64,000 nt of DNA from Phorcus lineatus (taxonomy: Eukaryota; Mollusca; Gastropoda; Trochida; Trochidae): the NCBI GenBank assembly GCA_921293015.1, contig OV121090.1:992001-1056000 (forward strand), in the 5' to 3' direction. The notes beneath the pieces are model-generated. The model was not told the origin of the DNA, did no database searches, and was given only the letters and a program-made list of their open reading frames with translations. Position 1 is the first letter of the stretch; every line of letters starts with the position of its first letter. The position numbers and the translations under genes are program-made. Below are positions 21,201 through 50,809 of this stretch, in pieces.

Positions 21201-21265
21201 TGCAAATATGTATATTTAAAGCAATAAAATGTTTTAAAAACAACTAGTATGTATATATTTATTTA

Positions 21266-21424
21266 TAAGAATTGACTTCAACATTTATTAAGTTCATGGA
21301 GGTATAAACTTAAAAACCGATGTGCAAACTAGGCGTAAATCCGCTACGCGGATTCACACAGTTTGCACATCGGTTTTTAAGTTTATACCTCCATGAACTT
21401 AATAAATGTTGAAGTCAATTCTTA
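21266..21424. repeat. Nearly perfect 65-bp-arm hairpin
   Basis: Bases 21266-21330 are the reverse complement of 21360-21424 with no mismatch that I can see. The 29-base loop contains a second small inverted repeat (AATCCGC/GCGGATT). A similar stretch (CATACCTCCATAAACTTAAT) occurs at about 20513, so 20.5-21.4 kb may be one composite foldback element. Confidence 0.8.
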
Positions 21425-22444
21425 AAAACCAGCGAGGTTCAACTCTTAGCTCTTAATGAGACATTGATTTCATTAAAGACCCCTTTTTGTATCCTCCATT
21501 CAAGATGGTAGAAAAAATTTAAATTTAAATATTAAAAACTCAATCAGGTCTTACATGATAAAGTTAATAGCTTTATCTAACAGCATAGTCAATCATAACT
21601 TTGGTTTAGAGACAACAACACACATGTTAACAGAATACACATGATCTACTCTTGTGTTTCAAAGTCTATTACGAAATTGCTTTTCATAAAATACAGGGGA
21701 AATGTTGCTTTTTTTGAAATTCAAGTTAAAATATGTTTTGAAAGAAAAACATAACATCAACATTCATACTGCCCCTAAATAATAACAAATATTTTTGGAA
21801 AATAGATTTCCAAACTTGGATGAACTTCAAACAAAGGACAATAAAAGGACCACTTGAAAACACACTATCAACACCGCTCATACATAATAAACACACATAA
21901 AATAGATCAAGGCACAGGACACGAGTAGCAATGCAAGGTAACTTACAAATCACATTACAAGCACTCCAAATATCTCTTGCAGCAAATCTTGGAAAGCAAG
22001 AATTTAATTACCTCATGCATTTCTCTCATCAACTACACAAATTCTGATCATGCCACAAACAGAATATATTGATTTACCATCCAAATCCATTTTCTCATCA
22101 CTCTATAGGCCAGGTTAATATTTGTAAATATAAATTGTGATAAATATGATGTTAACATACCATGGCTCATGATGCAATGAAATAATTTTGAAAGCAGTAT
22201 AAGTGTTTTCCTATGTACACCATACAAGTTTTTTTGCATCATTTTATTTGTTCCTCTGGTTGTCATATCAAATTTTAGATTTTAGCTGTATATGTCAAGA
22301 CAAAGTACTGAAAATAAATATAATGTCCCTCTATACCATAGCGACTTAAACCAAGAAACATGTAAACTGAACTGCACAACTGAAAGCAAATCAGACCTTT
22401 CGCGTCAAATGGACCTAAAGAAATAACCATTTTCGAACAAAAAT

Positions 22445-22721
22445 CATCCTGCTACATCAGCGAATTTGTCTCCGCCTAGCTCCATTATATACCCTGATAT
22501 CCTTCGGCCTAAAACGCTTGTATCGCTAAATATAGCAAGCCAATGAATTGACTCTTATCCAGCTATAATGGCACCATCCGGATGAGAATTCAAACAAATG
22601 TCAATGTAGGCTATAAATAGCCATGAGTAGGCAGCCGTAAGCGATACAAGCGTTTTGGGCCGAAGGATATCAGAGTATATGATGGAGCTAGGCGGAGACA
22701 AATCTGCTGATTAACAGGATG
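22445..22721. mobile_element. MITE with long inverted repeats and 9-bp target duplication
   Basis: Ends are CATCCTG...CAGGATG, with arms of about 90 bp that share TTTGTCTCCGCCTAGCTCCA and ATATCCTTCGGCC. AACAAAAAT occurs directly on both sides. No ORF. It lies in the NDRG gene's large 5' intron. Confidence 0.75.
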
Positions 22722-23570
22722 AACAAAAATAAAAATAGTAACAAAATATAGGAAACTCAAGCAATTTTTTCAAATAAAAAAGATACTTATTCTAGGTATA
22801 AAAAATGAATGTAGAAATTAAAGATGGAAGTTAAAAATATATCTTAAACATTGCATGGTTTGCATAAATGAAATCATGAATTCAACAAATAGGGATCTTT
22901 TTGGCCAGGGATTTTGAATTTTTCTTATCTTGTGAAAAAATAAGTAATATTCAAAAGACATTTTTGTTTTAGAAAAGCCTATTACTAAATGTATTAATGT
23001 TACAAAAGATCATGCCACTTTTTCTCATCTTGTAAGGGTAAAAGGATATCACCCGCAGACAATTTTTCTAGCACGATCCCAATTATAGTATTGCTTGTAC
23101 AGAAAGCCCTGTTTATTTGGCAACTTTTCCACTGACATAATAATAATAGTTAGCAACCTGATATAAATAGATTAGGATTCACTGATAAACTTTACTAGTT
23201 CAATACATTTTAATCAAATTCTCAAAGGTTATGGTCATTTTGACTAAAATATATGTACCGGTAAGTAGGTGAATCAACAATGTCGTCACTTCTAATAATT
23301 TTGTTTCAGTTCAAATAAGCTTTGAAAGAATAAATCTAGAAAACGTTTAATGCAATCTTATACTTGAGTATACGAAAAAATAAAGACAGTTTTCAAAAGC
23401 AATGATTAAGAAAACAAACTATTAGTAGCAAAGCAGTGGTTTTCCTAGTAGGGGTCCAGGAGCATTTGCCCACCCTTTGAGCTTGGTGTCCCTTGAATTT
23501 AGGAACAGTTGGATACTTTATTCATTGTAAATGCGCTATTATATTTCTTTAAATAGAATTAACTAAAATG

Positions 23571-26169: not shown

Positions 26170-27779
26170 CATGTTGTTTTCTGCTTTCTACCTACCGGTT
26201 GATAAATCCAGTCATAGAAATGTATTAATAATTAGTCTAGTGTATGAAGTATGTTGAGGTCACGAGTGAAATTTCCTGATATATTTACGGTATATAGAGG
26301 GGCGAATAGTTGTTATGTATTTATTTTTCATAAAATAAACAGGAAATCAATTTGTTGTAAAAAAAAGTAGAAGTTTACATGTCATTTTTATACTTTAGAA
26401 TGTCATCTAAAGATTGTGGGTAATCTCTTACTTATAAAGATAATCTATCAGGATGAAAAAATCAGTTGATTCAAATTTCTTGTAATATTATTTTTAACAA
26501 TATAATAATATTGCATTAAAAATATGATTACATTGTTAATTCGTTATATTTTCCCGTTTTATGAGTTCAAACACAAGGGATGGTTATTGCAAAGCTGAAA
26601 TAGGTGGGTACATTATTCGTCTCTTTACAGGGATTTACATAACACAAATTCCTCGTTATCCTTTCAATTTTCTAAAAGTATTTGTTTAACATATTGAAAC
26701 TAGGCCTCGCGTCGTCAAAGACATTTGACTTTAAGAAAAAAAATCTGTTTTTGCAGACGGCATTTAAGTCATACATAGATTCACACTTTAACTAAGGTTA
26801 TGACGTCTCGAAAAGATTAAAACATTTACGCAAGCAGCTTGGGAAATAAAGATTGATAAATGCGGGCTTCACATCTCTAATGAAATGTATGTTAGTAAAA
26901 GAAAATTGGGATTATGAATAGAGAGCTTAGAACTTGTCAATTGACTTATTCGGAAATAACTAAGGACGAATATGCTTGTTTCTTGTAAACTCTACCTAGA
27001 TAACCGTCGCAACATACACACCATGCATGTTAAATACAGGTCTCAGATTTTTTCTTAGAGAAACGTACACAACGAGTACATGAGAAGCTTTTGATCAATA
27101 TATTTGAAACTGCTTTCAAGTCTGTCTTTAACGATATTCAATTAATTAAGTTGCATTTTTCTATACAGCAAATTAAAAAAAAATAGGTACAGTTTTAAAC
27201 GCAAATTTTTATTATAAATTCTAGATTTTTGTTCTTGGCTGCCTCTACATTACTACGATTCTGATGAATTAACAAAGAGTCCTGTAACATAGCATACTGT
27301 AGCATTGTTTTAAATATATCGACCCGTGATATCAACATACATTCCATTTTCAGCCTATAATTTAAGAACATTTGATATGAAACTTGAAACATTTTTAAAA
27401 TCTCTAGTAATAACTCGGTGAAACCAACAGTAAGAAATACATATGAGGAATAAATTGAGGATACATATTGTAGCCTGATAGTAAATATATTTTATTGTTA
27501 GTATCATGAATCCCTCATCTACTAATTTTCGCTTTCGTATATTCACCACGTATTTTAAATTCTCCATGACATATGTTTTTTCATGTATTCTGTAGCGGTA
27601 TTCAGCTAACCTATTGCAGCTTGTTTACCAATCAAATTCTTTCAAGAAATAAATATGATTAAAACAAATGAGGATTCGAATAAGGAATTTTTAACCTATA
27701 TGCATCATATGCCACCAAAAACACCAAATCTACTTCCACCATCCATATCAAAGTTGCATTTGGTTTACATATTTTTGTC
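26170..27779. other. Gene-free spacer between NDRG and the sulfatase cluster
   Basis: AT-rich sequence with no credible exon, repeat array or structured element that I can see. The short ORFs here show no known family. Confidence 0.5.
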
Positions 27780-28260
27780 TTAAACAGTCACTCCGTAAGT
27801 TGTTGGAGTCATATACGCCAAACTTAATCAGGGGTGACATTTGATCGCGAACTTTCCACTGTTACCCCAAAAAAACATTTTAAAGTTTATTTGGTTTTTT
27901 TTTACAGTGACAATATGAAGGTAGAACGTCGCAATTATGACCGAAAACCGGACATTGGCGCGCGTCAAATAGTCAAACGTAATTTTGGAGACTTATCTAA
28001 AACAGCCAGGAGGGCAGTTAGGAGTTGATAGTGTTTGTTAGGTTATATAACTAATATCCATGTATATTTGACGTGATATCTACCCATTTGTGCATTTATG
28101 AGGCTGTTTTAAGATTTTCATGGAAAACCAGTATTTGTCATATATATGTCTTTTGGACATGAAAAGTTAAGATGTTTTGATTTTCTATCACCATATATGA
28201 CATTTAGGTTCGTATCAAAGGTAAATAATATGTTATGAAAATCACGGAGTGGCTCTTTAA
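27780..28260. mobile_element. TTAA-ended repeat, copy 1
   Basis: Starts TTAAACAGTCACTCCGTAA and ends CACGGAGTGGCTCTTTAA, an imperfect terminal inverted repeat with TTAA at both edges, as left by piggyBac- or Kolobok-type transposition. About 90% alike to the copy at 40875-41342. It contains a short open frame (MKVERRNYDRKP...) after an acceptor-like TTTTTTTACAG. Confidence 0.7.
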
Positions 28261-28653
28261 GTATTTTATGTAATTACTATATCTTATTAATTACATGTAT
28301 GCGGTTAAGTTTTGAAGAATAGTATGATCATGGTTGATTTTACATTGCAAGAGGGATTGTGATATGACTCAAAATCACGCTTTACACAGCGCTGAATAAA
28401 ACCCGCTAACATAACTACAGTTACATTACCAAATAGGCTGTTTGATACTGACGTCTCTTTTTAAATACCTTAAAACTGCAGTTCTACAGCAAGCCCGGTT
28501 AGCGTTTCTAATATTTCCGAACGATTTTGAAATGTGTATTATTATTGTGAGTCATATTTGAACTATCTTAATGATAAACCCGTTTACGCCGACGACACCA
28601 TTTAATACATAAACATTTAAAACTCAACTTAATTATTGCAAGCAGAGAAAACA

Positions 28654-29765
28654 TCAATCCTTTTCAAAACATGACATAATATTTCTAAAATTAACAAACC
28701 CCCCTTCTATGACAAAGTCTCCAGTAGCAAATGACGTTAGAGCCGCCATTTTGCTGACAGTGATTTCTCGCCATGTTGATTCAGTCGTAGAAACTTTAAT
28801 CTCATAATTCTTTGTCTCTCTATCCGTTACCATGACAACAGAGTTGCGTATTGCTAGTGAGATAACAGTTTTCGTGTCCGTGAAGTTAAAGAGAATTGTG
28901 GTATTAACTGTGGTACAATCTTCTGCCTTGTATCGAACTCTCAACATCGTCATGAGGGTTAATATGGGAGCCACTCTGACAAAATCTTCTCTCCGTTTTC
29001 CTTCATTTTGTCGAGTTGAGATACCCCCAACAACTTCGAGCGCAGACGTGAAAAAGTAGTTCCTTCCATTTGCACTTATCTGTTGGTTTCCAAGTTCTAT
29101 CATTGCCCTTGATGCTATTTCCCGTACAAGCTTGTTGTCAGGATCGACCCGTATCACGTGAGAAGCCAAAGTTAGCGCCCACCGGAAGTCCTGCTTCCCA
29201 AGAGCTTCTTGAGCAGCTGTTGCACATCTATCGACACCACCACTAAGTTCAACATATCGGTTGGCCAGTTCATCAGGGGTCAAAGGTGATAGTTCAGCAG
29301 GGTCACCACTGAACCAGCCAATATAGGTGTTAAAAACTCCTTTGACCGACCATTCTGTAGTTCCGTACAGTTCGATGAGGTACGGATGCGTTGCCAGATT
29401 CTCGGGCAGACGAACTTTTGCAGCAATCTCGTCTGGCATGAATCCCTTGTTCATGAACCGGATGGTCTGGTCGTGCACGAACTGGATAGCGTCTCTGTAG
29501 CTCGTCAACAGATCCTTGATGGTTTCAGCACCCTGTATCGGCCTCGTGTGACTGGGCACAATATACTCGGGTTGAAGTTCAAGGATCTTGTCGAGGGAAG
29601 TAACCCAGTCGAGCAGACTGCGGGAGGGAGTTCCCCTGATGGCGTAGAGGTTTGGGAAGGCACGGTACACGTCGTCTGCACATAGGAACACTTTCTGGTC
29701 GGGTAACCACACCCCGATCTGGTCGGCAGTCTCTCCGGGGATGTGAACCAGTTTCATTTTGATCC
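28654..29765 (-). CDS. Alkyl sulfatase A, exon 4 to stop
   Basis: 1,112 nt after a TTCAG acceptor: GIKMKLVHIPGETADQ, ADDVYRAFPNLYAIRG, IVPSHTRPIQG, the dimerisation region (WSVKGVFNTYIGW, SPLTPDELANRY) and a C-terminal domain ending FEKD and TGA at 28656. No AATAAA signal is evident in the few hundred bases downstream. Confidence 0.95.
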
Positions 29766-31751
29766 CTGAATCAAGACATTTCAAAACAGATTTTACTTTG
29801 GTACCACTTATTGCATGGGCCAAAAGGGCTCCAAAGCACATTTGTTGATATTCAGAAGGGGTAAGGTCATACTGATCTCGAAAACAGATAAATTATGAAG
29901 AATTGTTTATTGCCATTATCATAAATAAGAAAAGGGCTTTCGATTAAATAAAACAAAAAATTGGAGAAATCGTTGGGCCAACAGTTGGCACGTTTGGCCT
30001 AGTTCTGCACACCGTGGATGTTTTATGGTCCTCGATGGGAAGATCACGCACCTGCTACCTGTATGTCCCTCTCCAGACCTGCAAACAGCTTGTTGGGCAT
30101 GACGAGTCCAATAGAGTCCCCTGATTCTCCAACTCTCAGCTTCATTCCGATACCAGAGTTGATGTGGTCGGGGATAAGAACTCCGAACTGCCGCAGTGCA
30201 CGCCGGGAACCAATGGGCGCCGAGAAGAAGAAGGAGTGGATCTCTCGGACAAAGCTCTGGTGTGCCCATATGTTTGGTTTTGGTTGCCCTTCTTCGATGA
30301 ATGCCTGGACGTAGAGTGAAATTCAGGGTTTGTCGTAAAAGTACATCAAATCATGATTTGTCACTGCCTCTTGAACCATTTGAAACCTACCCTTCACGAA
30401 GTCGGTAGATCTTAGCAAAACATATAAACGTAGTCAATGCCAAGTCTTTCCTATTTAAAACATTTTTAAAGTTATCTTAACCACAATTACCCTTTTGAAA
30501 TGTTCGATGTGTAAACGTTATAGAAATCGTTTAATTGGTTGCAATCAAAAGACATTGAACATACTTGTGCCCCAAAGGTGTGGTCTGCGTGATTGTGGGT
30601 GTAGACGATTGCCTTGATGGGTTTGTTGGTGATCTCCCTGAAGGCTGCCATCACCTCCCTCCCCGACACAACACTCTCTGTGACGTCAACCACGACCACT
30701 CCGTCCTCGCCCTCGATCAGGATAGAGTTGGCCAGGGCAAAGCCGATAGCCGAGTAGACGTTCTTGGTGACCTGTATTGAGTTTGAAATAATATCTCGAA
30801 ATTATAACCTATATTGGCTTAGAAAACGAAGGTCATAAACAAAAAATGTATTGTATGGACTGAGACTGGTTTCTTGTTTACTTTTTGCTCTTTAAACATA
30901 GATCTACTGACTGCAATATACAGGATCCAGATAGGTGGATTTATGTTTATAAAATAGATCAGCTGAGGGGAGAGTTGATTAACACATCAAAATTATGACA
31001 CTGGGTTATTTTAGCTGAAATAAGGCTCTGTGTAGACATGAAGGCCTGGCATCATTTCTGCTCATTGCTACCCTCGACATGAGATCAAAGTAACTACTAA
31101 AGGCCAGTTAAACATAAGCGCTACGGCATTATAACTTACATGACCTATCAATGAAAATATATTCCATACCGGCTAAACCAACAACGCTTCATTGGCTGTC
31201 ATAGACCCAAACTCATTTGATTTTGATCGTATATCGTGAATAACCCGCATTATTATTGTAAAGAGATAAGGCTAATGTGGGACCCCTATATCTTTTCTTA
31301 CAAACGCCACTCAAGTAATTTATACGACGCTATCTCTGTTAAAAACTGACTGTTTCATGGTTCTCTGAGCGGTTAATTTTTGCAAAATGTATCCTTCCTC
31401 ATTTCTATCCAATCAACGATCGGCTTATATGGAATCGGTATTCTAGCCTAGAAATTGCTACACTGGTAACAGAGGTCAAAAGTAAAGACATTTGGTCAGC
31501 TCTGTAAAAGAAGAATGATTGACAAGGTTGACGCCCTGCTTGGATGCATTTTTTCAAACAAGCGCCCATCTCACCTTGATCACTTCTTTCTTATTAAACA
31601 CGTTGGAATGTACTTTCAGGATTTCTGGACCTCGAACCCTGCTGGCCAATCTTTCGATTTGGACCTTCTGAACATGTCTAGACCACAGCCAATTTCCGGT
31701 CAGTGCAAGTAGTGCCAGAGCGACAGACACAACCACACCCGTGTTCGCCAT
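28654..31751 (-). CDS. SdsA-type alkyl sulfatase, copy A
   Basis: Exons 31751-31575, 30771-30565, 30304-30052 and 29765-28654 join in frame to 582 residues. A hydrophobic segment at about 5-22 suggests a signal anchor or signal peptide. The metallo-beta-lactamase zinc motif THNHADH sits at 117-123 (ligands H118, H120, D122, H123); E224 in PGETADQ and H285 in PSHTRP match the remaining ligands of bacterial SdsA1 as I recall it. An alkyl-sulfatase dimerisation domain (about 335-455) and an SCP2-like C-terminal domain follow. Bacterial members split alkyl sulfates to alcohol and sulfate; the animal substrate is unknown. An in-frame ATG lies 25 codons upstream, but MANT aligns with the start of copy B, so I chose it. 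Confidence 0.93.
30052..30304 (-). CDS. Alkyl sulfatase A, exon 3
   Basis: 253 nt from AFIEEGQPKPNIWAHQ to LERDIQVA plus one base. I chose the donor GTGCGT at 30051 rather than the GTAGCA seven bases earlier, because only the former keeps the reading frame into exon 4 (GIKMKLVHIPGE) and matches the phase of copy B. Confidence 0.9.
30565..30771 (-). CDS. Alkyl sulfatase A, exon 2 with zinc motif
   Basis: 69 complete codons from VTKNVYSAIGFALANSILIE to the zinc-binding AIVYTHNHADHTFGAQ, acceptor ACAG, donor GTATGT. Confidence 0.95.
31575..31751 (-). CDS. Alkyl sulfatase A, exon 1
   Basis: 59 complete codons from MANTGVVVSVALALLALTG to NKKEVIK, donor GTGAGA, phase 0. It encodes the N-terminal hydrophobic helix and the IERLASRVRGPEILKVHS segment. 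Confidence 0.9.
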
Positions 31752-31829
31752 GCTTGGAATCTGACGGACGGAGTAGATGAGATTGTAGAATGACAATAAA
31801 TGGAATTGATTAGGTAATATGAACATTGC

Positions 31830-33830
31830 AATTTCACGATATCAGCTGTTCATTTGCTTGATAACACATTCATAATGTTCTTCTCCATCCTCAGTTCATT
31901 AACCCTGGACGTTTCGATGACGTTTATCTCTTTGAAGGAGGTTGACTATGCTGGTGCTAAACGCAACCTCTGTAGCGGATACTTAAAAAGATTGTTTCAA
32001 CATAACCTACAATACTATATGCATTGTTTTGAAATATACGAGCGTCGGATGGAGCAAACGAAGGCCTGTTGGATTTTTAATTCTCTAGTGTCTGAGCTGT
32101 TTACGATTAGAGGAGCAACCCTTTTAAACTGATTTTGTTACTGCACTAGAACCTGGCACCTTTCTAGAAGAAAGTTGATCTTTCTGGTGACGATATCACA
32201 GACTGCATAAATCAGCACTGTCTAGTGGCAAACGCTGGCCAATTCTCCTGTCGTGTACTCACAGATATTAGACGTCATATGGTTGGCATCTTAGTAAAAA
32301 AAAGCAAAATATCAGGTTGCTACAAAGACTTTTATTATTTATTCAATATCATAGTTTATTTGATCTTTCCTTGGTGCGTTCTAAATTAGAAAATATGATG
32401 GAAAATGTTCACTTCTTTAAAATAGGAGAAAGGTTTTATTATCATTCTGTCCAATTACTTATGTAAAGAAATTAATGTACGAAATGATTAAGAGGTGATT
32501 GTAATCAAGGACATAGACATACGGTACTGTTTTACATTTATCACGATGTTGTAAACACATGTACCATCATGTTTGAATTTGAATATATGGATTTTCTTTG
32601 CATCTCCCATTCACTTAACGAGTTTCAAGACATTCGGAACGACAATCTACATCGTATAGAGTTGTATGTCTGACAGAACAGTAGTACACATAGCCGTAAT
32701 GGCTCTGTTTGTTTGACCCAATAGCAACATTGTAGCTGTTAGTGTATCAATTGACACTTACAAACAGGAAGTTAAATACATAAAACAAACATAAACAACA
32801 CTCACGACATGCGTTACGAACCTATCAGCTGACGTTATGGATCCGTGGAGCTTCTCGCTGAAGACATGTTATAGAGATACGATGTGCACATGCATATCTA
32901 GGTCAGAGGTCAAAATTTAGGACATTACCCAGGTGTCAAGCACAGATATCGTATGTGGTGGCGTGGGGGAGTCACTGTTTGGCTTGTCAATGTTGTTGAA
33001 TGTTGAAAGTTCATACATGCAGCGCGATTTATAAAAAATGTACGTCCAAGTCTTTAAATAAGAAACAATCCTTTCTTGATAACAACTTCTTATTGCGAAA
33101 CATCACGGCGTTTCTTAGTATAAGCTCATCTCACAAAATAACATAAAGCGTGGTGATTTTTCACAATAAAGAAGTTCTTCTCAAGAAATTTAGCTGTTCT
33201 TGCTGTAATTATAACACGCTGATCTCACAAACGAAGACTACCTTATTCAAAGATTAATTAATCTGTTAATGAAGTTATAACTGTACAAACAGCGATAATG
33301 AATGATATTCCATAGTGTTATCACAAGATCATTGAAAGTGTATATCTATAAAAAAAAAAAAAATTAAAAAATTTCATAATTTTATATTTGTTTGACTACT
33401 TCCATAGAATTAGAAGAGTAAGTTGTACTCGGATTGACAGTGAATTGATTTGGCAAAATCTCTTGAGCAAAATTGTCATCCTGACCGGGAAAGTTTTATT
33501 TGAGGCAGAGCTTAAAATTCCACCGAGACTGAATAAGGTTTTCATGAAGCATACGGAAAAACTGAGACGTTTTTGAAACTACGGCAATAACTGTACAACT
33601 ACCTTTGATTGCACCTAATCGGGCCTCTACATTTCTAGACCGAGAAACGCTCGCATTAGAACACAGTTTAGTATATAAATTAATGACGGAACTACCCTTG
33701 TTTGATGAGAATGCCGTCAATCATTCATTTTTTTAATTTTTTTCTCAGCAAATCATGAAATTGTAAGAAGAGAAAACTGAAGTTTTAAACTTAGAATATA
33801 ACTACCATTGAGAATGAACCTATCACGAGC
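31830..33830. other. Spacer upstream of sulfatase copy A
   Basis: Should contain the promoter and perhaps a non-coding exon of copy A, but I see no clear core promoter. There is an A-rich run at about 33350-33370. No other gene is recognised. Confidence 0.45.
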
Positions 33831-33832
33831 CA

Positions 33833-34163
33833 TCCCATTCTCTCCCAAAAGAGGTAACCCCGTCATAAATTTCTATAGATATATGTATAGGAATTTAAGA
33901 CGGTGCTACCTCTGTGGGAAGAGAATGGAATGTAAAGGAATTTATGACGGAGCTACCTCTGTGGGGAGAGACAGGAATGTATAGGAATTTATGACAGAGC
34001 CACCTCTGTGGGGAGAGAAAGAAATGTATAGGAATTTAAGACAGAGCTACCTCTGTGGGGAGAGAATGGAATGTATAGGAATTTAAGACGGAGCTACCTC
34101 TGTGGGGAGAGAATGGAATGTATAGGAATTTATGACAGAGCTACCTCTGTGGGGAGAGAAAGT
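33833..34163. repeat. 47-bp minisatellite with one inverted unit
   Basis: GGAATTTA starts at 33890, 33937, 33984, 34031, 34078 and 34125, an exact 47-bp period, with the unit core GAGCTACCTCTGTGGGGAGA. The bases at 33833-33876 are the same unit in inverted orientation. The array lies between the two sulfatase genes. Confidence 0.9.
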
Positions 34164-34169
34164 AGCCAT

Positions 34170-35220
34170 CCATACCATTTCGTAACTGCCGACCTACAAT
34201 CGTAGTTGAACATGGACTTATCGAGGTTATGTAAACTGGACTAAACCTGTTTTTGTATAGGAATGAAAATGTTGGGAAATCATTTATCCCAACCATTCTA
34301 TATCGAAACGTTTCATTTGCATTATTTGATGATTAAGCAAAAATAATTGATAACGAGTTCACGGATTGCCAAAGGACTATTATTCGTTTATTATTATTTT
34401 TTGTTGTCAAAAAGTGTATTTTTAAGTAAGTATTTTGTAAGTTTTGCACTTAATAAAGTATATCCCGAGATGTAAAAAAAAACCCAAAAGATTTATTCGT
34501 CATATTATTGTGAACAAACGTTATCCACCCTTATTATAACCCGCACGACATCCGAAAAGCTGTATTATTCATATCAAAATTTTGATGTTAGGAAAACGTT
34601 AGAGATATTTGTCATGTTATCCTTTAGCATTATCTACATCAGATATACAGGAAACTCCTTTACATCAGAAAGTTGTTTTGGAGAACAATTGGTTTAGTGT
34701 CATTTTTGTCTTTTCAATATATTCTAATGTATATTTGTAAACTTTAATTTTGTTTATACATATATGCATTTTCAACACAGATATATCGTAAAACATTTTA
34801 TTGCAAAATAATACATTTTCGAAATTACTCACTGTATGTGTAAACTAAAAAACATTATTACAATAAAAGTAAACACGGAACACTGTACAAACTGCAGAAC
34901 TAACTTCGGTAAACATAAAATTTCAGGAATGGTAATATTATGCCAATATAAAGATCAAGACTATTAACTTTCTCGACAAGACACGCCTCGCACCAGTCGT
35001 CCTCACCGGCTAATGGAGCCTTCTTGCATTGTGCTAACATTGATTATATCACCTTCATCAAAAATGAAGTTTATTTATTTCTTATAGCAGTTTCAAGTTG
35101 TTCAGCTGCATTTTGAAAAGGAGCGAGCACAGGAATGTTGAAGAAAGGAAAAGACTTTATTATGCTAGCAACGAGTCTGGTGCGAGGTTTTCTTCGCGGT
35201 GTAGATGTATCACCATTTGA
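34170..35220. other. 3' spacer of sulfatase copy B
   Basis: AT-rich, no coding region recognised. The 35.0-35.2 kb part, just after the stop codon in the direction of the gene, is less AT-rich and is probably 3' untranslated sequence. Confidence 0.4.
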
Positions 35221-35226
35221 AAGTGT

Positions 35227-36335
35227 TCAATTGTCTTTGAAACAAGTAAACAATGTTTCAATTATCTGAACATTTCCTTCAACCTTAAGGTCAGACATAC
35301 GAGCAGGAGTATCATCAATTAACTTGGCTATCGTGATTTCTCGCCATTTCTCGCTGTCAGCGGTGACCTTGACATTGTAGCTACCCTGAGGCCTGTCCTT
35401 GATGATGACTACCGAGTTTCTCACTTGAAGAAAAACTGTCGACTTTGGATTCTCAAATTCGAACAGAACGGTTGTGTTAAGGTTTCCACATTTCTCAGGC
35501 GCGAACCTGACGCCGAATACGTTGAAGAGAGTCAGAAGAGGCATCTTCTTGATGAAAGACGCCATGGTGCCGGAAGTAGTTTTTGTATTGGCCTCACCTA
35601 TTACCTCTAATGCGGCCGTGTGGAAGTAGTTCCTTCCGTTCGAACTGATCTGCTCATTACCAAGTTCCATCATGCAGACAGAAGCAATTTCTCGTGCTGC
35701 TGAATTCCTGTCGTCTGCTCGGATGACGTGTGATGCAAGTGTAAGTCCCCACCGGAAGTCCTTCTCCTCCAGCGCTTTACGAGCTTCTGCAACAACGTTA
35801 TCTACCCCTCCTCCAAGCTTTACATATCTGTTGGCGAGCTCGTCTGGTGTCAGAGGTGACAAGTTCACAGCATCTCCATCGAACCAGCCAAGATACGTGT
35901 TGAAGACACCCTTGACGGACCATTCAACTGTGCCATAGAACTCCAGCAGATAAGGATGTGTTGCTAGATTCTCGGGCAGACGAACTTTAGCGGCAATCTC
36001 GTCTGGCATGAATCCCTTGTTCATGAACCGGATAGTCTGGTCGTGCACAAACTGGATGGCGTCTCTGTAGCTCGTCAACAGATCCTTGATGGTTTCAGCA
36101 CCCTGTATCGGCCTCGTGTGACTAGGCACAATGTACTCGGGTTGAAGGTCAAGGATCTTGTCGAGGGAGGTGACCCAGTCGAGCAGACTGCGGGAGGGAG
36201 TTCCCCTGATGGCGTAGAGGTTTGGGAAGGCACGGTACACGTCGTCTGCACATAGGAAGACTTTTTGGTCGGGTAGCCACACCCCGATCTGGTCGGCCGT
36301 CTCTCCGGGGATGTGAACCAGTTTCATCTTGATTC
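35227..36335 (-). CDS. Alkyl sulfatase B, exon 4 to stop
   Basis: 1,109 nt after a CACCAG acceptor, from GIKMKLVHIPGETADQ to the C-terminal FKDN and TGA at 35229. The 365 bases at its 5' end (36335-35971) are nearly the same as in copy A; the rest is strongly diverged. Confidence 0.95.
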
Positions 36336-39300
36336 CTGGTGCAAAAATTTACAGAGGTGACAGATAGCCCTAATATATGCAATCAAAGTTCGCTTGTTTT
36401 CGATAGTCTTTGATTATCGAATAAAAAGAAAGTGTTCTTTAAAGTGAAGTCATCTTGCAAAGACAACTTGCAGTTTTGCAAAGGTTTAATAACACGAAGA
36501 TGAATCTACTTTGATATAGCAGGACATGATCACAAACTCAGTAACATTATTATATTTAGGATCACATGCGCCAACTTGAATAGAACAAATTCTTGTTTAT
36601 TTCAAGTAAAGTCCCTTGTGGGTTTCCAGCCACACCCCCACAGTAAGATAAAAAAATCGCCAACACTAACTGAACCAATAGTTCAGCCACTCATCCACCA
36701 GGCGATTCGTTCTGTCCAGACTCTGAGGGCATTGGTTTGAATATCACAAAGGACTCAACCCGAAATAGTATAAGAAATTCTTCTTTTCCAGGTAGCTTAA
36801 ACTCAGATTAATTTTTTTTACATTTATTTAATCTCTAAATGGCATGAATATCTAACAGTATAACTTAAATGCTTTGAATGATCCATTTACAACATCTTTA
36901 TTTTCACATTGGTGTAATAATTTTCTCAAGTGGAACTAATTGATAGAAAACTCCTAGCAGTTTACCTCCATAACTTATATCACGCTCAGACCCTGTGAAG
37001 AGCTTATTAGGCAGCACGAGACCAACGTCCATGTGACTCTTGTCCATGCTGAGTTTGAATCCTATTCCGGAGTTGATCTGGGCGGGGGTGTGGGTGCCGA
37101 ACTGACGGGCGGCTCTGCTGATCAGAATCTCACTGCTGTAGAACCATCGCTGGAATTCCTTCATGATCAGATGGTGCGCCCAGATGTCTGGCGGGTGGGA
37201 TGGGTCCTCTATGAACGACTGCAATACCATGGTTTAGAGTGGTTTAGTTGGTTCTATCTCATGTTTACAAGGCCCTTATTTCACAAAACCCCGTAGTCCA
37301 ATGGCCGCCATATTGAGTTAGGATCACTACAAGTCTCATTGTACGAGTGCGACGTTTCGGTGCAGATTCTAACACATGTGATACTTAACATGATTTGTTT
37401 GTGATTACACTGAAGCATCGAAATCTACACCGAACGTCGCACTATCGCAATAAAGAAGTTGGGAATACAAAGAACTCTTCCTTATTGATCCCACTGTGGA
37501 TTTTAAAACATTAAACAAGTTAACTGAATAAAAAAATTTCAGGCAGATATAGTGTTTCTTTTCGAGTGAACTTTAGTTAACATTACTTTACTGACATTAA
37601 GTAATACATCGAAGCTGCGAGTCAAACTGCATTGAGGAAAAAAGACCTCGGGAATTTTCTAACCTAACCTTTTGTAATCTCAAGAAAAGCAAGACCTAGA
37701 TTACGGTCTCTTATTTCACATTCCTCTTAGTCTCCTTTTACGTATTTTATAAAACTGTCACTTTTATATGAATTAATGATTAAAAATTTATTTTTTTCCG
37801 AGAGGAAATGTCAGTCTAACTCGGACAAAGACACCAGTCTCACCGATAGACTGTAATTCATTATATCAACCTAAAGTTCACCTTACTCCGAAACATATCC
37901 TCGAGAAAATCAAATCTAGATTCTAAATGAACAACGTGAATCTCATTTCTCTAAAACTCTGTCCTATATTTGATAAAGTACTCCATTTTGTAAGAATACA
38001 TTTTCAGAGGCTGAGAGTTAGTGTGGTGAAAACTTCAGCAAGTATCAATCAAGTCTAGATATAGGATGGAAAACATGAATCCAGTTCTCTGTAGCTCATT
38101 TCCTATATTAAATTTAAAAAAATCTTTCAAAGTAGCACGATTTTTTATATGAATAAAATTATCTCACGAAAACGAAAATAGACGTTTCTTATTGCAAATC
38201 AATGTTTAACCAAAGAAAGCAGTTTTAAAACGAACGTACCATGGTCGGTTAAGCTATGAAAGTCCCTTTTCCTACCTCAAAAGGTTATCACACAAAAAAG
38301 GATGCCAGTGGTTTTGCTTAATACTTGATGACATTTTAATGAGATTTGACTCTCTGAAGATTATATATGTAGCATAAACTGATATTTATTTGGGGAAAAT
38401 TTGAGAAATAAATCTTTCAAAAAACGTCCTAATGCCCCTTAGAGTATTTACTTACCACCTTAATGTAGACACTAGCTAAGTTCATTACTGCTAATTGAGC
38501 AGCTTACCTGAGCGCCGTACGTGTGGTCAGCATGGTTGTGTGTGTAGACAATGGCGAGGACAGGTTTCTTGGTGATGGCTCTCAGGTCTCGGAACACCTC
38601 CCTCCCCGCTGCAGCGCTCTCTGTGACGTCAACGATGATGACGCCATTCTCCCCCTCGATCATGATGGTGTTGGCGAGAGCGTAGCCTATAGCGCAGTAG
38701 ATGTTCGGGGTAACCTGTGGATGGAGTAAATGTCACTTCAATACACGTACGTCATCAAATATCGATATTTGTAAAGGAGAGCACCCGAATCTGTGAGATT
38801 TTTAGACATGGAACGAGTTGTCCTTTTGCCCATCCGTTAAAAGATAGCTCTGAATCCGAGGGTGTCCTAAGTATGTAAACTCTTACATCATATATTAGAT
38901 TTAGCATCTTCCCTGCCCTGCATGGCTTTAAGTTGCACCAGTCTTTATCACTGGCTAATTTAAACCTTGCTGCCAATCCGCAAAAAGTCTTCTTTTGAGT
39001 GCAGCGCCCTCTTAGGCGAAAAATTCAATTCTCATATCATTTCTCATTGGACTATTGAGATTCGTTGCAGCAGCCTGGACTGCAAGCACAGAATCAATTA
39101 GGAAATGCGATAAGGCCTATCTTAGCAAGTCATTAGGGCTGGTGCAAGTATTAGCCATGCAAGGGAAGATGTAGATTTAGTGAAAACAGTTAATGCAGAG
39201 GCATGGATGGATGTCCATATTCGTTAATATGAAAGGTAGTTTTCATTTTAATAAAAAGGAAGCTAACATTTTTAACAAACCTTTATCACTTCTTTCTTAT

Positions 39301-39454
39301 TAAACACTTTAGAGTGTTCTTTCAGAATTTCTGGAGCCCGGACTCTGTTGGCCAGCCGCTCGATCTGCTCCTTCTGCGCATGTCTTGTCCACAACCAATT
39401 TCCGGTCAGTGCCGCGACAGCCAGGCAGACGGCAACGACTGCGGTATTCGTCAT
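35227..39454 (-). CDS. SdsA-type alkyl sulfatase, copy B
   Basis: Exons 39454-39281, 38714-38508, 37218-36966 and 36335-35227 join in frame to 580 residues, one codon shorter than copy A in exon 1 and one in exon 4, with identical intron positions and phases. N-terminal hydrophobic segment at about 5-20. Zinc motif THNHADH at 116-122. It shares PGETADQ and PSHTRP with copy A. Exon 3 and the C-terminal domain differ from copy A at roughly half of the residues, yet all visible metal-site residues are kept, so both look active. It lies 3.5 kb upstream of copy A in the same direction, a tandem duplication. Confidence 0.93.
36966..37218 (-). CDS. Alkyl sulfatase B, exon 3
   Basis: 253 nt, the same length as in copy A, from SFIEDPSHPPDIWAHH to SERDISYG plus one base, acceptor TTGCAG, donor GTAAAC. 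Confidence 0.92.
37340..37447. repeat. Inverted repeat in sulfatase B intron 2
   Basis: GTGCGACGTTTCGGTGCAGA near 37348 is mirrored by TCTACACCGAACGTCGCAC near 37440, with a weaker match between them. It lies next to a TTCACAAAA-type repeat end at about 37278, so this is likely part of a small DNA element. Confidence 0.5.
38508..38714 (-). CDS. Alkyl sulfatase B, exon 2 with zinc motif
   Basis: 69 codons from VTPNIYCAIGYALANTIMIE to AIVYTHNHADHTYGAQ, acceptor CACAG, donor GTAAGC. Confidence 0.95.
39281..39454 (-). CDS. Alkyl sulfatase B, exon 1
   Basis: 58 codons from MTNTAVVAVCLAVAALTG to NKKEVIK, donor GTTTGT, phase 0. The start is the first in-frame ATG and aligns with copy A. Confidence 0.88.
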
Positions 39455-39850: not shown

Positions 39851-40148
39851 AAATTTATCATCCAAAACTCTGTTCCACAGGAGATATCGCTTGTGGAAGA
39901 TCAAGCGATATCTCCTAGGAGATATCTTTTTGGCAGTAGATTTTGAACAATGCCCCTCTGACGTCAAGTATATGACATCACAGTTGTTTTACATCATCAA
40001 GTAATGACATCACAATGCTATGACGTCATAAACACTACGACGTCACAATGCTATGACATCACCGCACTTGGAGTCTTAGGGCAGCAGGGTGTTCAGTAAT
40101 GTTCATTTGTCAATCAAATGTAATGAAAAATGATTTTGGATGATAAAT
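39851..40148. repeat. Inverted-repeat-bounded block with inner hairpin
   Basis: ATTTATCATCCAAAA at 39853 and its complement TTTTGGATGATAAAT ending at 40148 bound the block. Inside, CAGGAGATATCGCTT and AAGCGATATCTCCTAG (39878-39918) form a second hairpin. It is probably a non-autonomous DNA element. Confidence 0.5.
39959..40064. promoter_or_regulatory. Cluster of CRE-like sites upstream of sulfatase B
   Basis: TGACGTCA at 39959, TGACGTCAT at 40021, GACGTCAC at about 40039, and TGACATCAC at about 39973, 40005 and 40053, within about 105 bases, 0.5 kb before the start codon of copy B. TGACGTCA is the CREB/ATF consensus. Another TGACGTCAC lies at 40397. The spacing suggests degenerate tandem repeats, so binding function is only an inference. 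Confidence 0.45.
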
Positions 40149-40294
40149 AGAATCTCACCCTCGTGTCTTCTGATATCAAATATATCAACACTCGTTGATA
40201 AAAGTAAAATATCCTCGGCAAGCCTCGGATATTTGTAACTTTTATCAACTCGTGTTGATATATTTGATATCAGAAGACACTTGGATGAGATTCT
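40149..40294. repeat. 146-bp foldback
   Basis: AGAATCTCA...GTGTCTTCTGATATCAAATA at 40149 is mirrored by TATTTGATATCAGAAGACAC...TGAGATTCT ending at 40294, with a centre at GGCAAGCC. A few mismatches. It directly adjoins the 39.85-40.15 kb block. Confidence 0.7.
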
Positions 40295-40874
40295 CTATAT
40301 CTATACGTAACCATTATTGGGGTTCATATCATTCATACGATAGCCATTGGTCACAGTATCCTCTATCATAGAGATGTCGTGTCATAATCAACCCCATGAC
40401 GTCACGAAAGGATTTCAGCGTTTCAGACAATCTCATTAAAATATATTAAAATATTGCTGCACTACGTCACGCAAATTACAGATCTCACAAAACCCCATTA
40501 CTCGAGCCATCAGGTTCACCTTGACTACATTTGCGTGTCTCTAGAACACCATTAATGAAGATGCAAGTAATTACAAAATGTATGATCTATACGCGTAATG
40601 TAGTGGAGCATTATAGATTTCTTTTTATTGAGATTGGCGTTTCAGAGGGAACAATATAAAAAATCATCATAATTGATATGTAGACAATGATTCAATAAAA
40701 AGAAAGTTCATATGTTTCAAATATTTTGTAAAGAATATGACATATTCGTCTTTGAAAAAAGATGTCATAATGTTTAAGAGATTAAGATTAATTTTAGTGT
40801 ATCAAGAAATATGAATAACCTTATGTTCTTGCGCGAAATGGAATGTCGTCATAAAGGGCTTGTTAGCATTCATC

Positions 40875-41342
40875 TTAAAGAGCCACTCCGTGAGTTGTTG
40901 GAGTCATATATGCCAAACTTAATTAATGGTGTCATTTGATCGCGAAGTATCGACTGTTACCAAAAAGACACATTATAAAGCTTATTGTTTTTTTTACAGT
41001 GACAATATGAAGGTAGAACGTCGCAATTATGATCGAAAACCGGACAGTGGTCCGCGTCAAAAAGTCAAACGTAATTTTGGAGACTTATCTAAAACAGCCA
41101 GGAGGGTAGTTAGGAGTTGATAGTGTTTGTTAGGTTATATAACTAATATCCATGTATATTGGACGTGATATTTACACCCCCTTGCAATTATAAGGTTGTT
41201 TTTAGATTTTCATGGAAAACCACTATTTGTCTATATATGTCTTTTGGACACGAAAAGTTCAGATGTTTTGATTTTATATCACCACTTAGGTTCGTATCAG
41301 CGGTAAATAATATGTTATGAAAATCACGGAGTGGCTCTTTAA
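40875..41342. mobile_element. TTAA-ended repeat, copy 2
   Basis: Begins TTAAAGAGCCACTCCGTGA and ends with the matching inverted TCACGGAGTGGCTCTTTAA. 468 bp, the best-preserved copy, upstream of the second sulfatase gene. The short internal frame differs from copy 1 mostly by amino-acid-changing substitutions. Confidence 0.75.
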
Positions 41343-42696
41343 CAACTTTAAATTATCCACGGAGTTAACGGACGAATTGCACAATTAATACATACTCGTC
41401 TCGGATATTTGAATGTATGCTTAGCGAGTTATACACACAATCATGAACACAAACACAAACCTGCTTGGAATTCAGGGCTTACACAACAGCTTAATAGACT
41501 TTCTCATATGGCTCCTTATACCTTTTCTTCGTAAACTTAATCTTCATCTCTACGTGGTTAGTTTAAGAAGACTCACCTATATTTTCTGCAGTGCCCGAAA
41601 CAAAATTTCGATCTTGCAACTTTTCAGAGTTTTAGTAACCTATCCACTTTTTGTCAAGAAGTTAGTTTCCCCGACTTAGAGTCAGTCTATGATATAAAAA
41701 CAGGTCCCGGGGTGAGACTAAGGGTAGCGAAGGGACGCAAGGGGGTTACGCTTCACTGGTGACCCTGACCTGTTTAAGCCTGATTGTTATCAGTGAACCG
41801 TCTCAAGTTTGATGGTTTGAAAACATAGAGTAACACTTAACCTTTCTGCGAACCTGACCTGATGAAGGCTTGATTGAAGAACTGTTTGAAACTGAATTGC
41901 TGTGCAACGAATGTTTATCATTTCAGATTCCAAACACTAAGCAAAAGCAAAAACTAAAAAAGGGCATTGAAAGGAAAATGTTTTCTGTAATAGCCATACC
42001 CTACAGAGTGAAAACTGCTGACGTTTTAACACGAGACGAGATTACATGAATATGATTATAACCGCGTGTCCTTCTTGCCACTCAAGGTTACTCCAAAAAA
42101 TTGTTACCCCCCAAAAAAAAGAAAAGTTTTTAGTCTGAAAGAAAGCAAACCAGTCATTACCTCGAACAATTCATAAAAACATATTCTGATATTGATGTTA
42201 CAGCTTAATTTAGTTTTCATAGAAGAAATAAATCCGCTTATATGGTTTTCATACTTGCGACTCATCAGAATGAATTCTTTGATTAACAAATTGCAGATGT
42301 AAGCATATAATTCTTATTCAAGAACATTACATTTTCATATCAACATATCATCTGAAAGTCTTGCTTTTCTAACGTAGCTATCGGTCTTAAAACTTACCCA
42401 AACAACCAAGAGCTGGAAATATCACTGACGATATTTCTTTCGTTTATTCTACTATGACCTTTTGAACTCTTGTAAACAAAGTGTCACAGCATACCCAGGT
42501 AAACAGATCTATAATGCTTCACTGCCCGGCTGACCAGCAGTTACCAGTGGTCAAATCGCCTAATCTGGGATTTAGTGTATGCATGAAGACGAACATAGGG
42601 TCCGTATCTCTTATAGTATAGTATAGTATAGTATTATACGGTAATTGACGATGTTATACAGGAACGCAGCATTTGTATGATACAGTAATCAATGAA
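41343..42696. other. Gene-free spacer
   Basis: No recognised coding region. A (TATAG)n microsatellite lies at about 42614-42635. The short ORFs show no known family. Confidence 0.45.
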
Positions 42697-42962
42697 TTAA
42701 AGAGCCACTCCGTGAGTTGTTTGATCCAAAATTAATCAATGGTGTCATTAGATCGCAAAGTATCGACTGTTACCAAAAGGAAACATTTTAAAGCTAATTT
42801 GTTCAGTACAGTGACACTATGTGAGGTAGAACGTCGCAATTATGATAGAAAACTAGACAGTGGCGCGCGTCAAATAGTCAAACGTAATTTTGGAGACTTA
42901 TCCAAAACAGCCAGGAGGACAGTTAGGAGTTGATAGTGTTTGTTAGGTTATATAACTAGTAT
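42697..42962. mobile_element. TTAA-ended repeat, copy 3 (3' truncated)
   Basis: Starts with the same TTAAAGAGCCACTCCGTGA and follows the other copies up to GGTTATATAACTA at about 42959, then changes into a KRBA2-like transposon fragment. The right terminal repeat is absent. Confidence 0.7.
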
Positions 42963-42974
42963 GCACAGCTAAGA

Positions 42975-43373
42975 GTGAATCAACAGAACATCGAGGTCCA
43001 GAAGAAAAGAGCTGCAGATGGTCAGCTTTCACAAGCTGAACGTATGGTCAAACGTAGTCGTTTAGAGCATGTTACTGGCAACCCGGGTGACAATGTGACC
43101 ATTCTTAAGGGGCACTACAGCAGAAATCAGTTTGATCTGTGCACCCAGAAGCTGTTTACCATCAAGGACATGTCCAGGGATGTTGAAGTTGGCCTACGTC
43201 ATGCAGTACAGAGTGAGTCCCGATTTGGTGGCAGGGGATATGCTAAATGCAACTGTGCAGCAAATGGCAAACAATGTCAGACCAACAGATGTAAATGTGC
43301 AACAGCAGGTGTCACTCCAGCATCACATGTCCAAACAAAAATTGAAATAATCCATATGTCAATAAAACTATGA
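42975..43373 (+). pseudogene. KRBA2-like transposon-derived protein fragment
   Basis: 132 codons, of which about the first 107 look like a family of mobile-element-derived proteins often named KRAB-A domain-containing protein 2-like in molluscs: RMVKRSRLE, YSRNQFDLC, then a cysteine-rich CXC module (YAKCNCAANGKQC, NRCKCATAG). Two breaks are seen: a segment usually present between GDNV and LKG is missing, and the expected Cys/His end of the CXC module is replaced by unrelated sequence. The integrase part is absent. It directly follows the truncated TTAA-ended repeat. Confidence 0.6.
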
Positions 43374-43424: not shown

Positions 43425-43615
43425 ATTTCAGTCTATCTGTCTGAAAATCAGCTTGAATTTTCAGTCAATCTGTACATTGACTGCTTTTTTCAGTCAATCT
43501 ATACATTGCCTGAGTGAATCAGGCAATCTACAGATTGACTAAAAATTTCAGTCGATCTACAGATTGACTAAAAATTTCAGTCGATCTACAGATTGACTGA
43601 TTTTAGACATTGACT
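43425..43615. repeat. 29-bp palindromic array
   Basis: The unit TCAGTCGATCTACAGATTGAC... repeats at 29 bp (CAGATTGACT at 43531, 43560 and 43589), with degenerate copies before. The core CAGTCAATCTNNAGATTGACT is itself a palindrome. Confidence 0.75.
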
Positions 43616-45236: not shown

Positions 45237-46022
45237 CCTATAACACTTACACACAATACATACCGACATGGAATGTTGAAAACCAATGTCTATAAAACAG
45301 CTAAAATAATCAACAAATGTGACGAGGTCAAAAGTCTCAGTCTAAAGTGGCAATAGTGCTACAGTCAGGCTGCTGAGCGACTTGGCCATGGGGAGCCCAT
45401 CCGGGACCCTGAAAAATCAAATTTAAAACTGACTATTACAATGTTGCATTGAATAAGGCACCGGGATGGTCTTGCATAGCAGTCTTCATGGTGTGCATAA
45501 ATCAATCTCAGCTACCTCAGCGAGGGACCTGCAATAACTGGAATTGTCGTGGCTTTTGATCTAAAACAGATATTCACGACATAATTTTCAAGGATCTTGA
45601 GATCTTAAAATACACTTTTATACATACATTTTACAAAAAAGTGACAGGATTTAAAAGCAGTATAAATACGGATGATCGTCTTTGGAACATTACTATTATT
45701 AAAAGAAATGTTAGAATTTTAACAACCAAAACATCCAATCAACGTAAAGCTTTAAAAAAGTGAAAAAATACTATTTGTATAAGAAAAACCAAAAGATTTA
45801 TATGATGTAACTTCAGAAATAGGAAAAGACTTATTTCGTGAAATTGAGAATGTTCCACCATAAATATTACTAAATGAATGACATGGAAAATCAATCGATG
45901 AAATTCAATGGTTGTCGATTTCTGATTGAAATTGGCATTTCCTATGACTCGGTATTTGGTGTACGCAAATATTCGATTTGGATGGCAATATACTAAACAT
46001 TCAATGCTAATAGTAGGGCAAA

Positions 46023-46750
46023 GCAATATTAATCACAGCCCACTGGTGTCAACGTTCAACACGTATATCACAAAGCAATATTAATCACGGCCCACTGGTG
46101 TCAACGTTCAACACGTATATCACAAAGCAATATTAATCACGGCCCAGAGGTGTCAACGTTCAACACGTATATCACAAAGCAATATTAATCACAGCCCACT
46201 GGTGTCAACGTTCAACACGTATATCACAAAGCAATATTAATCACAGCCCACTGGTGTCAACGTTCAACACGTATATCACAAAGCAATATTAATCACAGCC
46301 CACTGGTGTCAACGTTCAACACGTATATCACAAAGCAATATTAATCACGACCCAGAGGTGTCAACGTTCAACACGTATATCACAAAGCAATATTAATCAC
46401 GGCCCAGAGGTGTCAACGTTCAACACGTATATCACAAAGCAATATTAATAACGGCCCAGAGGTGTCAACATTCAACACGTATATCACAAAGCAATATTAA
46501 TCACGACCCAGAGGTGTCAACGTTCAACACGTATATCACAAAGCAATATTAATCACGGCCCAGAGGTGTCAACGTTCAACACGTATATCACAAAGCAATA
46601 TTAATAACGGCCCAGAGGTGTCAACATTCAACACGTATATCGCAAAGCAATATTAATCACGGCCCAGAGGTGTCAACGTTCAACACGTATATCACAAAGC
46701 AATATTAATAACGGCCCAGAGGTGTCAACGTTCAACACGTATATCACAAA
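46023..46750. repeat. 52-bp satellite-like array, 14 copies
   Basis: GCAATATTAATCAC...TCAACACGTATATCACAAA repeats every 52 bp. There are two main unit types, CCCACTGG (units 1, 2, 4-6) and CCCAGAGG (others). Units 7-8-9 reappear as 10-11-12 with the same diagnostic bases (CGACCC, CGGCCC, TAATAACGG with AACATT), a three-unit higher-order repeat. Confidence 0.92.
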
Positions 46751-50441: not shown

Positions 50442-50809
50442 TGAAGTACTATACCACATCAGCTGCATCAATTGAACCCATGATTGATTGTCAGAGTATG
50501 TAAAGTAATATCAAAAGAAGTCTAGCGAATCTGTAGAATCTTTTATACTTTAATGGTCTATGATACACTGACAAATTTTACATTGAAGCTTGAATTTAAA
50601 CAGTGATGATTATTTTAACGAAACCTGAAGTACTATACCACATCAGCTGCATCAATTGAACCCATGATTGATTGTCAGAGTATGTAAAGTAATATCAAAA
50701 GAAGTCTAGCGAATCTGTAGAATCTTTTATACTTTAATGGTCTATGATACACTGACAAATTTTACATTGAAGCTTGAATTTAAACAGTGATGATTATTTT
50801 AACGAAACC
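50442..50809. repeat. Exact 184-bp tandem duplication
   Basis: TGAAGTACTATACCACATCA at 50442 recurs at 50626, and both copies run to TTTTAACGAAACC with no difference that I can see. Very recent, or an assembly artefact. Confidence 0.9.

Follow-up and report, generated by a model that had tools for sequence, protein, structure and literature searches.

Gene conversion operates mainly between sequences of more than 80% identity, needs some 200 bp of identity to be efficient and proceeds at a low rate below these values, according to a published account (PMC3924818). Two systems come closest to the locus presented here. Interlocus (non-allelic) gene conversion has been described between the paralogues GOT1p1 and GOT1p2 of Tigriopus californicus (PMC3728101), and in newts segments were converted between Nav paralogues and duplicate exons (PMC8476164). 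The enzymes concerned are related to the S3 alkylsulfohydrolases, whose HxHxDH motif binds two zincs (PMC5066984). In the literature searched, no paper linking alkyl sulfatases to gene conversion was found.

The locus consists of two genes, A and B, lying in a 64,000-nucleotide stretch of Phorcus lineatus DNA (contig OV121090.1), the whole of which is called the window. As in GOT1p1/GOT1p2, weakly and strongly diverged parts make up a mosaic in the duplicates A and B; here, in contrast, the similar part is one block of even age and is known from one genome. As described for the newt Nav genes, a short coding segment is common to the paralogues, although for A and B no selected trait is known. 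With the S3 alkylsulfohydrolases SdsA1, PSdsA and Pisa1 (2yhe) they have in common three Pfam domains, the HxHxDH motif and the S3 consensus pattern; unlike these enzymes, A and B are intron-bearing eukaryotic genes predicted from sequence.

Results

Structure of the gene pair and the shared block

A and B are tandem neighbours of like orientation with a register offset of 6.57 kb, and both are intact, with four exons each and matching exon boundaries (Table 1). The Lactamase_B, Alkyl_sulf_dimr and Alkyl_sulf_C domains scored above the curated Pfam cut-offs in both proteins, and a PDB search with protein A as the query gave PSdsA (4nur) as its best solved relative (E 1.5e-72). The HNHADH motif was found in exon 2 at A118/B117, and the S3 consensus pattern, taken from PMC5066984, is matched by ADDVYRAFPNLYAIRGTPSR at A242/B241. 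By their domains, the HxHxDH motif and the S3 pattern, A and B are predicted S3-type alkyl sulfatases. Their duplication is old: neither the introns nor the flanks can be aligned any more, and the silent sites are saturated or nearly so.

Table 1 Positions of genes A and B and of their compared parts in the window
Feature	Position	Strand	Remarks
Gene A, 582 aa, predicted alkyl sulfatase	28654..31751	(-)	Spliced; GT..AG junctions; Pfam
Gene A exons	31751-31575, 30771-30565, 30304-30052, 29765-28654	(-)	
Gene B, 580 aa, predicted alkyl sulfatase	35227..39454	(-)	Spliced; GT..AG junctions; Pfam
Gene B exons	39454-39281, 38714-38508, 37218-36966, 36335-35227	(-)	
High-identity block, gene A	29401..29765	(-)	Start of exon 4; 16/365 differences vs B
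High-identity block, gene B	35971..36335	(-)	Start of exon 4; 16/365 differences vs A
Rest of exon 4, gene A	28654..29400	(-)	Diverged from B 35227-35970
Intron 3, gene A	29766..30051	(-)	Counterpart: B intron 3, 36336-36965

The initial annotation had noticed a nearly identical, sharply bounded block, which here proved to be the start of exon 4, and its counts were reproduced: 29401–29765 and 35971–36335, offset by 6570, form a gap-free alignment and differ at exactly 16 of 365 bases, 15 of these differences being synonymous and one nonsynonymous (E/D), while the adjoining 29341–29400 and 35911–35970 differ at 10 plus 8, that is 18, of 60 sites. Over this full extent the Ks of the block is 0.21; over the best-fit codons 216–334 it is 0.18 (0.08–0.30, 300 bootstraps), with a Ka of 0.004. 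At the protein level A and B are identical at 124 of the 125 residues of the block versus 86 of the following 120 (p 4e-11). About half of the residues of both exon 3 and the C-terminal domain had been said to differ, which is true of exon 3 (41/84 identical) but understates the C-terminal stretch, where about two thirds differ (42/124 identical; A residues 458–582 were compared). The block had also been described as coding for the active-site part of the fold. Alignment with bacterial enzymes placed three of the seven metal-ligand positions in it, namely E224, D243 and H285 of A, which presumably correspond to those of SdsA1, and the dimerisation domain begins inside the block; the HNHADH motif, however, lies outside, so that the description fits only in part.

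Silent divergence along the pair and the breakpoints

Silent divergence was examined in the 372 codons that specify the same residue in A and B (Met and Trp left out), 162 of which differ. These differences are unevenly distributed along the pair: 16 of 119 such codons differ in the block (codons 212–336) and 146 of 253 in the rest of the pair (Fisher p about 1e-16), and the same contrast was seen at the fourfold sites (11/56 in the block vs 79/119 outside). Outside the block, pS was 0.75 across all codons, and Ks reached 1.05–1.26 in exons 1 and 2; for exon 3 and the remainder of exon 4 it exceeded what can be estimated. The 84 differing codons among the 123 beyond codon 336 exceed the level of exons 1–3 (62/130, p 0.001), which may reflect codon usage or an older event.

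A model with two breakpoints raised lnL from −254.7 to −216.2, a gain of 38.6, with the best fit at codons 216–334 of the gap-free alignment and support sets covering codons 208–218 for the start and 325–338 for the end. For each of five mismatch penalties, the best silent-site segment in the conversion test outscored all of 10,000 permutations; this segment was 216–334 at penalties 2 and 3, 238–325 at 5 and 238–264 when zero mismatches were allowed, and it broadened to 9–334 at penalty 1. The permutation results and the likelihood gain of the two-breakpoint model together exclude chance as the origin of the block.

Introns 1–3 of A and B showed no more similarity to each other than to 100 shuffles of one partner; for intron 3 the local alignment score was 22, the shuffles giving a mean of 20.6 and a maximum of 29. 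In the flanks, about 1–1.4 kb on each side of A and B, no similarity above that of 100 shuffles was found either. Since the introns lack detectable homology, the 5′ edge of the block coincides with the exon 4 splice acceptor or lies a few bases off, and the other edge is inside exon 4 at about codon 334. Had the intron been converted in the same event, it would be expected to be recognisable today, given that the silent divergence of the block is only 0.18. Both genes retain their own diverged flanks on both sides. A single unequal crossover would have swapped one flank too, thus the arrangement points to an internal non-reciprocal transfer or a double crossover; the latter is possible, but conversion from the neighbour is the more economical of the two.

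Surroundings of the pair

A dispersed repeat of about 490 bp occurs on either side of A and B, with copies at 27778–28268, 40873–41350 and 42697–42965. In the P. lineatus genome it gave 3843 first-look candidates, the best 40 of which, when scored, were the repeat itself and 39 copies at 91–93% identity. The copies at 27778–28268 and 40873–41350 were considered as a cause of conversion and rejected, because the repeat is genome-wide. Tandem arrays were seen between A and B (33836–34209, 47-base unit) and at 46019–46750 (52-base unit, self-alignments 93–97% alike), and two adjoining 184-base copies at 50442–50809 are 100% identical, being either the product of a very recent duplication or a duplicate introduced by the assembly. 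Long self-complementary, palindrome-like stretches at 21262–21428, 22444–22722, 40142–40301 and 43428–43600 are perhaps small transposons. An open stretch of 137 aa (42960–43373, + strand) ends in a cysteine-rich tail reminiscent of those at the C-terminus of integrase-type transposon proteins; at E up to 1 it matched nothing in Pfam or PDB.

Alternative explanations for the block

The block could in principle be alike through protein constraint combined with codon bias. Its GC3 is indeed high at 0.67–0.70 (A/B: block 0.67/0.70, exons 1–3 0.62/0.67, rest of exon 4 0.39/0.50; neither gene stands out as the donor by these values), and in the family the block is better conserved than exon 3 and the C-terminal part, about as well as exon 2. 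These properties fall far short of producing the observed identity. At saturation, the codon usage of the block itself predicts differences in 56.6 of 114 codons; 13 differ, the lowest of 5000 random draws being 37. Exon 2 is also GC3-rich (codons 61–120, 0.67–0.80) and equally conserved in the family, yet 20 of its 48 same-residue codons differ, as compared with 20.6 expected under its own usage and 29.7 under whole-gene usage; in exon 1, 17 codons differ where 21.9 would at saturation. The family conservation was judged against six bacterial relatives taken from 172 plasmid records with a match. Protein A is 31–46% identical to them in the block and 31–41% in the 120 residues that follow, the smallest p among the six contrasts being 0.09; the values are 38–49% for exon 2, 19–31% for exon 3 and 14–18% for the C-terminal part, which four of the six possess. 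Thus, the adjacent dimerisation stretch is conserved in the family like the block, but A and B have diverged there. The codon-usage and bacterial-relative controls uphold the annotation's argument that protein constraint cannot explain the silent identity, and this alternative can be regarded as practically negligible.

Purifying selection acting on the nucleotides themselves, through an antisense ORF, RNA structure or splicing signals, might also preserve the block without any exchange. Antisense ORFs do overlap it in both copies (29293–29685 and 35968–36255, + strand); the frame of these ORFs, however, contains 13 amino-acid differences in 121, the other + frames 7 and 15 and the sense frame 1, and the antisense ORF of the A copy, the one scanned, has no Pfam match. 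Folding of the A copy gave a z of −1.33, with 7 of 100 shuffles equally good, and within the window no Rfam match reached the gathering score. Selection of this kind therefore appears very improbable, and the same low probability is assigned to an assembly error by which the reads of one gene were built into the other. The sequence comes from a single assembly, which leaves room for such an error, but a mis-built consensus would be expected to be near-identical, whereas the block carries 16 differences, 15 of them silent, as fits selection after the event, and the window sits within a 49.55-Mb contig. A third paralogue or processed copy as the donor was rejected, as none was found among the best-scoring candidates of the genome, in the window or in 10 kb on either side. 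Across the 957.8 Mb and 74 contigs of the genome, the profile of the dimerisation domain (PF14863, E up to 10) found only A and B among the best 2 candidates, the exon 4 protein probe (E up to 0.001) only A and B among the best 4, and the block DNA these two places among the best 2; no further copy was found within the window or the 10 kb on each side. A phage search gave no match, which has little bearing on the question.

Discussion

Considering the silent-site scan, the comparison of the flanks and the codon-usage, bacterial-relative and third-copy controls, interlocus gene conversion between the tandem paralogues A and B is very probably the best explanation of the block, and the core of the initial interpretation is thereby supported. 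The word "recent", which that interpretation had attached to the event, has to be restricted: with a block Ks of 0.18 (0.08–0.30) the exchange is recent only relative to the rest of the pair and its duplication. On the assumption that silent sites change at 1e-9 to 1e-8 per site per year in each lineage, the Ks point estimate corresponds to an age of some 90 to 9 million years.

The first 365 bp or so of exon 4 would thus have been copied between A and B long after the duplication, most simply if a double-strand break in one gene was repaired by synthesis-dependent strand annealing on the other as template. The edges themselves are seen in the alignment; the tract presumably ended at the exon 4 acceptor because the homology ends there. 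Since then, 15 silent changes and one amino-acid change would have gathered, counts which suggest strong purifying selection, and the recipient gene would encode a chimeric enzyme.

A mild oddity is that the identity of A and B outside the block, about 60%, is lower than is usual for conversion: today's values for the coding sequence are 60.5% overall, 68% in the next 60 codons and 46–76% by segment, and the longest identical run is ≤23 bp. Conversion may have happened as a rare event between genes that had already diverged, or else previous rounds of it may have preserved the similarity of the block. The second possibility, which is a variant of conversion and compatible with it, implies that the block was homogenised repeatedly since the duplication while the flanks escaped; the identity of the block would always have sufficed for recombination, and its present silent divergence would date the last event only. 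It would account for an exchange between genes that are now 60% identical outside the block, and the lower silent divergence of exons 1–3 relative to the rest of exon 4 (p 0.001) is such as an older event might leave. On the other hand, divergence is even across the thirds of the block (4/39, 4/38 and 5/37; p = 0.20 for the largest gap), and no younger core is clearly nested within it. The scan gave a further segment in exons 1–2 (codons 50–108) that was not significant (p = 0.09), and exon 2 has the divergence expected at saturation if its own codon usage is applied, though not with that of the whole gene; an older exchange in the first exons may nevertheless have occurred. The even spread favours one last event across the whole block, earlier ones being possible, and repeated conversion is considered the less likely history, though one to be kept in mind. 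It is rather improbable that the block has persisted over a long time as an island of concerted evolution in which selection for the shared half of the active site favours repeated conversions.

Whatever its history, the block is a clean but ordinary instance of gene conversion. It indicates that paralogues can exchange a block smaller than an exon after their introns have lost all likeness and their silent sites have come near saturation, with one edge of the tract at a splice site. If the block were an island of concerted evolution, exon 3 and the C-terminal domain would diverge freely, and the pair would explore new substrate parts while keeping its catalytic core in common. For work on the family, the locus calls for caution, as trees or dates derived from exon 4 would make the old duplication of A and B seem young.
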